A stretch of DNA of 64,000 nucleotides, taken from positions 1 to 64,000 of the forward strand of contig VBBS01000034.1 in assembly GCA_005888745.1 (NCBI GenBank), in the 5' to 3' direction. Positions 1 through 6,437 of the stretch are shown here, in pieces. This DNA comes from Candidatus Bathyarchaeota archaeon (GTDB taxonomy: Archaea; Thermoproteota; Bathyarchaeia; 40CM-2-53-6). Positions within the stretch are counted from its first letter, which is position 1. Every line of letters starts with the position of its first letter. A model generated the notes under the pieces. It had not been told where the DNA came from. It did no database searches and saw only the letters and a program-made list of their open reading frames with translations. The position numbers and the translations under genes are program-made.

Positions 1-42
1 AGAGCTCTGCCCTCTCCTAGGTCAAGTATTGCAGTAAAATGG

Positions 43-203
43 TGCGGGGGGTGGGATTCGAACCCACGAAGGCCTACGCCACAGGATCTCTCCTGAAGCC
101 GGATCTTAAGTCAAGCACCACTCCCCATCGGAGTGGTCCTGCCCCTTTGACCTGAATCCCGCCCTATAGGACAGGATCCCATAGTGGTCTCGGGAACCCC
201 CGC
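43..203 (-). tRNA. tRNA-Leu (anticodon UAA), apparently with three introns; CCA encoded at 40-42
   Basis: On the minus strand, GCGGGGG (203-197) pairs with CCCCCGC (50-44); T-arm GTGGG-TTCGAAT-CCCAC (67-51); variable region GGCGTAGGCCTTC; anticodon stem/loop CAGGA-CTTAAGA-TCCTG can be built only if ~154-188, ~112-137 and ~88-104 are removed, leaving ~83 nt. Confidence 0.85.
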
Positions 204-382
204 TTTCGGCTTCACGAGGCAATGTCCATTCTTAAAGCCAATCTAGCAAAGGACCCGTGCTTAGGGCACAGGTCGTCCGGAAGTCTCCGATCAAGACCCC
301 CCTGTTCCGGGGTTTGAGATACAATCTCTACAAATCCCGCGTGTGTCCGCTTTCTTCTTGCAGAAGGGCCTGGCGCAAAGAG

Positions 383-847: not shown

Positions 848-1963
848 TTAGGGTTTCTCGCCTATTTCTCTGGCGAACTCTGTCAACAATTCCTTCTGTC
901 GACGCGAGAGGTCCCTCGGAATCTCAACATCAACTCTTACAAGCTCATCTCCTCGGCCCCACCCTCCGACTCTTGGGAAGCCCTTGCCTTCCAGGCGAAA
1001 CACAGTGCCGGGTCTTGTCCCGGGTGGAATCTTTAGCTGAGCCTTGCCATCGATCGAGGGCACTTGAAGCTCTCCTCCAAGGGCGGCTTTGGGAAAACTG
1101 ACTCTGGTCTCATAGAGAATGTTGTCTCCGTCGCGTTTGAACTCTGCGTGAGGCTTCAATCGTATCCGGACATAGAGATCTCCACTGCGCCCGCCCTGGG
1201 CAGCGTTCCCCTCTCCCCGGATCCGAAGGCTCTGACCTTCATCAGCTCCAAGGGGAACTTTCACTTGTAGTTTGGTCCTAGTTCGCGCAAGCCCGCTTCC
1301 ATTGCAGTTCTTGCACGGCTTGTCGATGATGCTTCCTTCCCCTCTGCACTTTGGACAGGTGGTTATCTGGACGAGTTGGGCGAACCCGGCTCGACGGACA
1401 GTTTGGACCTGGCCCCGGCCATGACAGTTGCCACAAGTCTTCCTAGAGCTTCCGGGCTGCGCCCCGGTCCCGTTGCATTCTTTACACTCAGCAAGTCGGG
1501 GAACCTCTATCTCTCTTGTCGCTCCGTGCGCGACTTCCTCGAAGCTAATCTGCAAATCGTAGAGTAGGTCCTCGCCTCTGGAGGGAGCGCTTGGGCTTTC
1601 GAAGTTCTGAAAGCCTCCGAATCCGCCGAGAATCCGTTCTACGAAGCTGCTGAACCCACCTCCGAATGCGCCGAATCCCATGTCTCGGAAGATAGAGTCG
1701 AAGTCCGCGCCCCGGAAAATATCTTCAGTATTGTATTTCTGGTAGATTCCCTCTCGCCCGAACTGGTCGTACTGTTTCCGCTTCTCTTCATCGGACAATA
1801 TAGCGTAGGCTTCTGAGATTTCCTTGAACTTCTCAGTGGCTTCAGGCGCTTTGTTCCTGTCCGGGTGATACTGTAGGGCGAGTTTGCGGTAGGATCCCTT
1901 TATGTCGTCTTTGGACGCGTTTCGAGGAACCCCGAGCACGTCGTAATAGTCTCGCTTCTCCAT
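848..1963 (-). CDS. dnaJ: chaperone DnaJ
   Basis: J-domain with HPD ([22 protein letters not shown]), four CxxCxGxG zinc repeats, C-terminal substrate domain. Confidence 0.97.
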
Positions 1964-1984
1964 TCTTTCCGATTCATCTCTGCT

Positions 1985-3862
1985 CTACCGAGAGCCTTCG
2001 TCCTTTACCTCTCTAAACTCCGCGTCTACGACGTTATCATCCTTGGACTGGTTGGCTCCGGGCGATGTTGCCTGTTGGGCGGGCTCGCCCGGCTTCTGAG
2101 CGACCTTCTGGTAGATTTCGGCCCCGATCTTCTGAAGTATTCTTGAGAGATCGTCGCTGGCCGATTTTATCCTATCAGGCTCCTTCCCAGATAGAGCCGC
2201 TCGCAAGGTGCCTGCTGCTTTGTCGATGGCTTCGACCTGTTCTTTCGTAATCTTGTCTTTCAACTCGTCTTTTGTCTTGTCAGCGGTGTAGAGCATACTT
2301 TCTGCAGTGTTCCTGAGTTCGACCTCTTCCTTTCGTTTCTTATCATGATCCGCGAACTGCTCTGCTTCGTGGACCATCTTCTCCTTCTGATCCTTCGAGA
2401 GTTTGGTCGAGGCGGCTATCGTGATCTTGTTCTCTTTCGATGTTGCTAGGTCCTTCGCGGACACATTTAGGATACCGTTTGCGTCGATGTCGAAGGTCAC
2501 CTCGATCTGGGGAATACCTCTCGGTGCAGGCGGGATTCCTGTTAGGTTGAACATGCCTAGGGATATGTTGTCTGTGGCCATGGCGCGCTCCCCCTGGAGG
2601 ACGTGAATAGTGACAGTGGTTTGGGAGTCGGCTGCTGTCGAGAATGTCTGGCTGCGTTTTGTCGGGATGGTCGTGTTTCTCTCCATGATCTTTGTGGCAA
2701 CGCCTCCCAGTGTTTCTACGCCAAGTGACAATGGTGTGACGTCCAGCAGGAGGATGTCCTTGACCTCACCTGCGAGAACTGCGCCTTGAATCGCTGCACC
2801 AACAGCAACGCATTCCATCGGGTCGACTCCACGCTCAGCTTGCTTGCCGATTATGTCCTCAACGAATTTCCGGACGAGCGGCATGCGAGTCTGACCACCA
2901 ATGAGGATGATCCTGTCTACGTCCTTGGGCGTAAGTTTCGCGTCATCGAGAGTTCTCTTGATCGGTGTCTCAACTTTTCGGACTATGGGATTAGCGAGCT
3001 CTTCCAGCTTGGCTCTCGTCAGGGTCGTGTGGAGGTGCTTGGGCTGGGATGAGTCTGCTGAGATGAACGGCAGATCGACATCAGTTGTGAGAAGGGTGGA
3101 AAGCTCGATCTTCGCCTTTTCCGCAGCTTCTTTGAGACGGGTCATGGCCATGCGGTCGTTTCGGAGGCTGATGCCCGTCTGGCGCTGAAACTCGGTGAGC
3201 AAGTACTCGACTATCGCGTTGTCAATGTCAGTTCCGCCTGTCTGGGTGTCCCCACTGGTTGATAGAACTTGGAAGACTCCGCCGCCGAAGTCCATTAGCG
3301 TGACGTCATGTGTTCCGCCTCCGAAGCTGAACACCATTATCTTCATCTCCTTGTCCGCCTTGTCCAACCCGTACGCGAGACATGCAGCGGTGGGCTCGTT
3401 GATTATTCTAGCAACCTCGAAACCCGCAATTTCTCCAGCGTCCTTGGTTGCTTGTCGCTGGTTATCGTTGAAGTGAGCCGGGACGGTGATTACAGCCTTC
3501 TTGGTTGGTCGTCCAAGAAACGTTTCGGCGTCTTGTCTTATCTTCTGAAGTATGAACGCGGAGAGCTGCTGTGGAGTATAGTCTTTCCCGGCGAGATGAA
3601 CCTTGTAGTCGGTGCCCATCTTCCTCTTGATCTCTATGATGGTCCCGTCGGGGTTTGTTGCTGCCTGCCTCTTTGCAGGTTCGCCGACTATCAGCTGACC
3701 CTCTTTGGTGAATGCAATGACCGATGGGAACATCTTTCCGGCCGCGGTCTGTCCTTCGGCACTTGGGATTACGACCGGGCGTCCGGCTTCCATTATAGCC
3801 GCAGCAGAATTCGTCGTTCCTAGGTCTATTCCTATGATCTTCTCTGTCTCTGGCTTACTCAT
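1985..3862 (-). CDS. dnaK: molecular chaperone DnaK (Hsp70)
   Basis: [35 protein letters not shown], typical substrate-binding domain; ORF reported to 3871 but ATG at 3862 gives [11 protein letters not shown]. Confidence 0.97.
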
Positions 3863-4478
3863 GGTCCCCAATCTCCTCTAGAGATGACTTCTCGGATTTA
3901 GACTCACGCTCAGCAGAATTCTCAGCCACTTTGACTATGCTGGGTCGCAGGACCTTCCCCCTCAAGGTGTACCCCTGGCGAATCTCTTCCACGATGGTTC
4001 CCTCCTCCTTATCCGACACAACTCGAAGCGCCGCCTCATGGAGGTCAGGGTTGAATCTTGACCCTAGGCTGTGAATCTTCTCCACGCCCTCTTTCGATAG
4101 GATGCTCTGTAACCGTTTGTGGACCATTCCGACTCCCTCCACTATCGTAGGGTTCTCTCCACTTTCCTCTGCCTCCCTGAGAGCGAGTTCCAGCTCGTCG
4201 TTGACCACTATGAGGTCGGATAGGATGCGTTGGTTTCCGAACTGTCTATTGTCAGACATCTCCTTCTCCACTCTCTTTCTGTAGTTTTCAAGATCCGCCT
4301 GAAGGTACTGCAGACGGCGCAGATAGTCCTCCGATTTCGTCTTCTCTTTCTCTAGCTCTGCACTGAGCTCCCTCAACGTGGCTTCAGGGTCTTCGCCTTC
4401 AACGGAATTCTTGGAAGGCGGTTGAGCCTCTACAGTTTCAGTAGCAAGATGTCTCTTTTTCTCGCTCACCAAAATCAC
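3855..4478 (-). CDS. grpE: nucleotide exchange factor GrpE
   Basis: GrpE-like coiled coil and C-terminal signature ([16 protein letters not shown]); overlaps dnaK start by a few bp. Confidence 0.92.
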
Positions 4479-5446: not shown

Positions 5447-6265
5447 CTAGGACGAGGACGATACTAAAAGGACACCAGCGATTATCAGTACAGCGCCTGT
5501 CCCAGAGTATACGTTGAACGGATCATTGAAGATTATCACCGATAGCGTGACAGCGACGATCACCTCTATCGGGAGAATGATCGAGGACACTGTAGACGAT
5601 ACAGTTTCTAATCCTTTCATTAGGAAGTAGTAAGCTCCTACGGTCGCAACGACCGCCAGGAACGCGGTGTAAGAGGCCGCTTCCCAGCCCAATTTGATAG
5701 GGGCACCTTGGTCCAACGGAATGGCGAGGACAAGAAGAAAACTTGTGATAAGAATCATACCTCCGGTGACCGCTCGTCCCCCTTTTTTGACAACGAGATC
5801 CTTGGAATAGATGAAAACCAAAGCTATGGTAACTGCGGTTCCAAGTATCAGCACGTCACCTAGAAACTGGTCTTGGCCCAAGCTCACGGCCTGACCTCGG
5901 GTAACTACCATGCTCGCTCCAAGAAAACCTGACAATACTCCAAGACCTTTCTTCGCCCCTATCACTTCGCTTCCACGAGCCCAGGATAGAATCGGGATCA
6001 TCAGAGCCGCCGTGCTTATGACGAGGGCCGCATCCGAGGAAGTTGTCAACCGCTGTCCCTGAAACTGCAGTACATATCCGAGAGCATTGACGAATCCCAC
6101 AACCCAGATGGGTCTTGTCCGGAGAAGGGTCCAGTCAACCCATCCCTTTCGACGAAGAAACAACAGAACCAGAACAGAGGCTAGTGAAAACCGAAAAGCC
6201 ACGAATAGATCTGCGGGAAGGAGATTCAGCCCGAGCTTGATTATCGGCACGCTTGTACCAAACAA
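5447..6265 (-). CDS. EamA/DMT-superfamily transporter
   Basis: ~9-10 TM segments, EamA-like repeats. Confidence 0.8.
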   Translation of the reverse strand: MFGTSVPIIKLGLNLLPADLFVAFRFSLASVLVLLFLRRKGWVDWTLLRTRPIWVVGFVNALGYVLQFQGQRLTTSSDAALVISTAALMIPILSWARGSEVIGAKKGLGVLSGFLGASMVVTRGQAVSLGQDQFLGDVLILGTAVTIALVFIYSKDLVVKKGGRAVTGGMILITSFLLVLAIPLDQGAPIKLGWEAASYTAFLAVVATVGAYYFLMKGLETVSSTVSSIILPIEVIVAVTLSVIIFNDPFNVYSGTGAVLIIAGVLLVSSSS

Positions 6266-6437
6266 AATCCCCGAGAAAAGTGCTGCCAGGATTCCAGTTC
6301 TGGACGCCGATTTTCCTCGCCTTTAGATGAGCTGGTCTTGCGCGCTGGCTTTAGAGTATAACTCGAGCTTGAGAAGGCTAAGTGTGAGAAGAATCAGCTA
6401 GGCTTATCTTCTGGTAGAACCCTAATTCCAGCGCGAC

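Follow-up and report, generated by a model that had tools for sequence, protein, structure and literature searches.

Three bulge-helix-bulge introns in a tRNA-Leu(UAA) gene of the Bathyarchaeia, in a genome rich in tRNA introns

Introduction

Can a tRNA whose parts are spread over 161 nucleotides still be a working gene, and if so, how would its pieces be brought together? The question is raised by the very start of contig C59 in a 2.2-Mb, 93%-complete Bathyarchaeia assembly, of which the first 64,000 nucleotides form the window analysed here. The class is known through another of its genomes, G059, whose tRNA-Leu match agrees in contig coordinates and in sequence with that of Candidatus Hecatella orcuttiae. 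A sequence-only reading had recognised all the parts of a tRNA-Leu(UAA) on the minus strand at 203..43, interrupted by three introns, and direct reading, a blind search and comparison with relatives each lead to the same result: the locus is a tRNA-Leu(UAA) gene with three bulge-helix-bulge (BHB) introns and an encoded CCA. These are ordinary archaeal BHB introns in a known kind of gene; what is new is the lineage, Bathyarchaeia rather than Thermoproteales, and we believe the main interest lies there and in the rest of this genome's tRNA genes.

Results

Layout of the gene

Acceptor, D-arm, anticodon loop (CTTAAGA), long variable arm, T-arm and discriminator A can all be read directly on the minus strand, and the identity of the tRNA is given by its UAA anticodon, its 14-nt variable arm and A73 ahead of CCA. 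In order of transcription, the features are as follows.

231..236, minus strand: TTTAAG, a candidate TATA box 28-33 nt upstream of the gene, proposed from the sequence only
189..203, minus strand: exon 1, tRNA positions 1-15 (GCGGGGGTTCCCGAG), near-invariant in 21 genomes
156..188, minus strand: intron 1, 33 nt, in the D-loop at tRNA positions 15/16
138..155, minus strand: exon 2, tRNA positions 16-30 (TCAGGTCAAAGGGGCAGG)
112..137, minus strand: intron 2, 26 nt, in the 5' anticodon stem at tRNA positions 30/31
105..111, minus strand: exon 3, tRNA positions 31-37, ACTTAAG, including the anticodon UAA
88..104, minus strand: intron 3, 17 nt, at the canonical site 37/38
43..87, minus strand: exon 4, tRNA positions 38-73, comprising the 3' anticodon stem, variable arm, T-arm, 3' acceptor strand and discriminator A
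40..42, minus strand: encoded CCA, followed by TTTT (39-36), a likely terminator

Removal of the introns leaves an RNA of 85 nt plus CCA, not the roughly 83 nt proposed earlier, and this RNA is predicted to fold as a perfect cloverleaf. The introns at 137-112 and 104-88 lie exactly where the sequence-only reading had placed them. An intron in the D-arm had likewise been foreseen, at 154-188 and about 35 nt long; its end and length need correcting, since relatives of family f4 that lack intron 1 read CCCGAG-TCAGG-CCAAAGGGG (CCCGAGTCAGGCCAAAGGGG) at the empty site and thereby set the boundary at 188-156, giving 33 nt. The gene ends 39 nt from the end of the contig and its 3' context falls off the contig, which we count against our preferred explanation. 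A dnaJ, dnaK, grpE cluster (window 848-4478, minus strand) adjoins the tRNA gene.

BHB folds at the junctions

As a BHB we took a four-pair central helix between the 5' exon and the 3' part of the intron, with a 3-nt bulge on either side cut after its second base. Such folds, on which the earlier interpretation hinged, occur at all three junctions, with four of four central pairs at introns 1 and 2 and a relaxed three of four at intron 3, which rises to four of four in some relatives. At intron 1 the central helix is CCCG(194-191)/CGGG(161-158), paired in 97.6% of cells. At intron 2 it is GGCA(143-140)/TGCT(117-114), the latter being TGCC in relatives, and an outer helix joins residues 22-24 with 32-34. 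At intron 3, CTTA(110-107) faces GGAG(93-90) in three pairs and an A-G mismatch in this genus, and relatives with TGAG in place of GGAG form four pairs.

For the full precursor, the fold of lowest free energy is a different one from the BHB fold: the BHB of intron 1 lies 0.5 kcal/mol above the minimum and those of introns 1 and 2 together 3.2 kcal/mol above, and at intron 3 a competing fold is better by about 4 kcal/mol, a point that we also count against the preferred explanation. Strong hairpins had been noted inside introns 1 and 2. The one in intron 2, CCACTCC(136-130)/GGAGTGG(124-118), holds up well, with compensatory changes at all seven of its pairs. The hairpin of intron 1, ATCCTGTCC-TATA-GGGCGGGAT, can form as well, but only in competition with the BHB; as f5, f6 and the remaining members of the order do not conserve it, we rejected it as the functional fold.

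Blind search and comparison across relatives

With the answer withheld, a decoder that searches all BHB-like introns, run with a lowered BHB threshold and with scoring of the variable arm, returned exactly the three Leu junctions as its top solution (score 25.8), a value reached by none of 60 shuffles (maximum 21.6) and, in a second run, by none of 100 (maximum 22.0). All three junctions are kept across 21 genomes with orthologous loci (14 from the genus, one from elsewhere in the family and six from elsewhere in the order), where the exons are near-invariant and the introns diverge in both sequence and length. In this set 96.3% of cells in the BHB structure are paired, a share that drops to 42-53% if the partner is shifted by 1-3 columns. 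Double changes are seen in 36 cells, where shuffles give 9.6. The cloverleaf and the intron-3 helix say less, because they are almost unchanging across the orthologues.

The same comparison supplies natural empty sites beyond that of f4: intron 2 is absent in G027, f10 and f14, and G066 and others have no intron at 30/31 or 37/38. Thus the gain and loss of introns can be traced directly, single introns being present or absent among close relatives. In a wider sample of the phylum, 398 genomes searched with a strict pattern that covers sites outside the D-arm and whose absences carry no information, the introns at 30/31 and 37/38 co-occur in family f30 and are found singly elsewhere, and on that ground these two introns look old. 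One member of the genus carries two three-intron tRNA-Leu(UAA) genes (G009:C110:152-319 and 6250-6417), 6 kb apart and with diverged introns.

Alternative explanations

Could the locus instead be a decayed tRNA-Leu pseudogene filled with random insertions, the cell relying on another UAA-reading tRNA? ARAGORN and Rfam at its gathering threshold both miss the gene at 203..43, as expected of an interrupted gene, and an assembly that is 93% complete could lack another Leu(UAA) gene. Nonetheless, no second UAA-reading Leu gene, which would have favoured a pseudogene, was found in that assembly, either among the tRNA genes recovered through their T-arms, where the Leu anticodons are UAA (this gene), CAA, GAG, UAG and, twice, CAG, or among the decoded tRNAs. 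The same three-intron form recurs in the sister genomes G005 and G015, each 95% complete, and neither the near-constancy of the exons over 21 genomes nor the covariation of the introns is what decay would leave. We therefore regard a pseudogene as very unlikely.

Slightly less likely again is a gene with only two introns, in which an unusual mature tRNA would retain the D-arm insertion as an enlarged D-loop. The stable hairpin that the insertion can make for itself, as part of the energy minimum, speaks for this, but the CCCG/CGGG pairing is kept order-wide even as intron length varies between about 14 and 35 nt, and f4 has the same gene with a normal D-loop and no insertion. The isoacceptor also calls to mind a self-splicing intron, since it is tRNA-Leu(UAA) that carries the classic group I intron of cyanobacteria and plastids. 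At 17-33 nt the inserts fall far below the roughly 200 nt or more that a catalytic core takes up, Rfam gave no group I match, and both the sites and the BHB motifs are in keeping with introns spliced by proteins, which makes this origin extremely improbable.

A proposed splicing pathway

The genome encodes two paralogues of the splicing endonuclease. In sequence comparison, alpha resembles the (alpha-beta)2 enzyme of Aeropyrum pernix (E 1.6e-42 against PDB 3p1z chain B), sharing its Tyr/His/Lys triad and, in the specificity loop, a lysine that aligns to K44; beta lacks the triad. Judged on these features, the pair is predicted to form a crenarchaeal-type (alpha-beta)2 endonuclease, and K44 is the source of that enzyme's broad substrate specificity (PMC6379350). 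The ligase RtcB is also encoded; its two matched pieces lie inside one open frame of 1006 aa (G000:C2:17455-20262, minus strand), which suggests an intein.

Overall, we consider it highly probable that the gene is functional and the genome's single copy of tRNA-Leu(UAA), with BHB introns at 15/16, 30/31 and 37/38 that would be cut by the (alpha-beta)2 endonuclease and exons that would be joined by RtcB. From the sequence, junctions, folding potential and conservation of the gene, and from the enzyme genes, we infer transcription, splicing and a partial order of events. The heterotetrameric endonuclease would cut each of the three BHBs, and RtcB would ligate the four exons into the 85-nt tRNA. 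Intron 2 would leave before intron 3, because the outer helix of intron 2 takes residues 32-34, which the central helix of intron 3 needs, and because the outer helix of intron 3 requires an uninterrupted anticodon stem. Removal of intron 1 would precede formation of the D-stem, since its BHB uses residues 10-13; introns 1 and 2 are not expected to clash.

tRNA introns across the genome

Among 39 tRNA loci examined, 32 decode cleanly and above all shuffles (the low-scoring L225 was set aside). By the uncurated output of our purpose-made decoder, these 32 genes hold 62 introns, or about 1.9 per gene; 30 are interrupted, 21 with at least two introns and 10 with at least three, leaving only Arg(GCG) and one Leu(CAG) intron-less. 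The excess length of the genes by itself supports the conclusion that nearly all tRNA genes of this genome are interrupted. A probable initiator tRNA-Met (L212, G000:C43:113450-114050) has an insertion in its T-arm.

The tRNA-Phe(GAA) gene (L243/L126, G000:C18:156973-157139, plus strand) decodes with four introns, at 8/9, in the D-loop, at 37/38 and in the variable arm, scoring 32.9 where shuffles reach 19.3 at most. Five members of the genus have the four introns and eight lack the one at 8/9, their empty site reading GCCGAGG-TA-GCTC by eye. In family f4 the tRNA-Phe genes (L259, L260 and L261), also read by eye, seemingly have four introns of a different set, one of them in the T-loop. The published maximum is three introns per tRNA gene (PMC8450103, PMC4033280), and the phrase 'four introns' was not found in the literature searched for such genes, a search limited to papers outside subscription whose silence is no proof.

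Copies of the acceptor strand in tRNA leaders

Three genes, tRNA-Phe (L126), tRNA-Asn (L114, minus strand) and tRNA-Cys (L131), carry an exact 7-nt copy of their own 5' acceptor strand 11-20 nt upstream, and each has an 8/9 intron whose BHB occupies acceptor bases 3-6. None of the 36 other genes examined has such a copy, where chance would give 0.11. Across the genus the copies are unchanged and the spacers vary (orthologues among L243-L255 and L275-L310), and in predicted folds of all three genes it is the copy that pairs with the 3' acceptor strand, with an advantage of about 7 kcal/mol over the true strand. A reading of the Phe copy as an additional intron, 11 nt long and at 7/8, was rejected for lack of BHB complementarity.

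Two observations speak against a simple model: tRNA-Ser(UGA) is decoded with an 8/9 intron yet has no leader copy, and the eight species that have lost the Phe 8/9 intron still keep theirs. Some Phe leader copies probably belong to genes that formerly had an 8/9 intron. We give an even chance to the broader proposal that the tRNA set of this Bathyarchaeia lineage is among the most intron-laden known, that it includes genes with four introns, and that it uses a new precursor device in which, where an 8/9 intron occupies the 5' acceptor strand, the leader copy would pair with the 3' acceptor strand, hold the tRNA body together and be displaced after splicing. If so, processing of the 5' end would wait for splicing. 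The leader copies next to 8/9 introns point to a step of strand exchange during tRNA maturation that can be tested.

Discussion

Regardless of how the leader copies act, heavy non-canonical tRNA splicing extends well beyond the Thermoproteales, into the mostly uncultured Bathyarchaeia. Gene finders miss many of these tRNAs, so the tRNA complement of such genomes is probably misjudged, and the broad-specificity loop of the endonuclease accords with co-evolution of enzyme and introns. We found no record of tRNA introns in Bathyarchaeia in the literature outside subscription papers, where absence is again no proof. That three introns in one gene would be unusual outside the Thermoproteales, as the sequence-only reading had it, fits the literature, but in this Bathyarchaeia order the multi-intron Leu(UAA) trait is standard, and there is a precedent in another lineage: the tRNA-Leu(UAA) of Caldiarchaeum subterraneum, the same isoacceptor, also has multiple introns (PMC3293823).

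The closest likeness is to Pyrobaculum and its relatives in the Thermoproteales, which have several short BHB introns per gene, up to three, at canonical and non-canonical sites including 30/31 (PMC8450103, PMC4033280, PMC4090602), the published extreme being Pyrobaculum calidifontis with 71 introns in 46 genes (PMC8450103, PMC4033280). The system described here differs in its host, an order of Bathyarchaeia in which the sites are shared by descent, and in an intron density that, at the value given by our own decoder, looks higher than that of the Thermoproteales.
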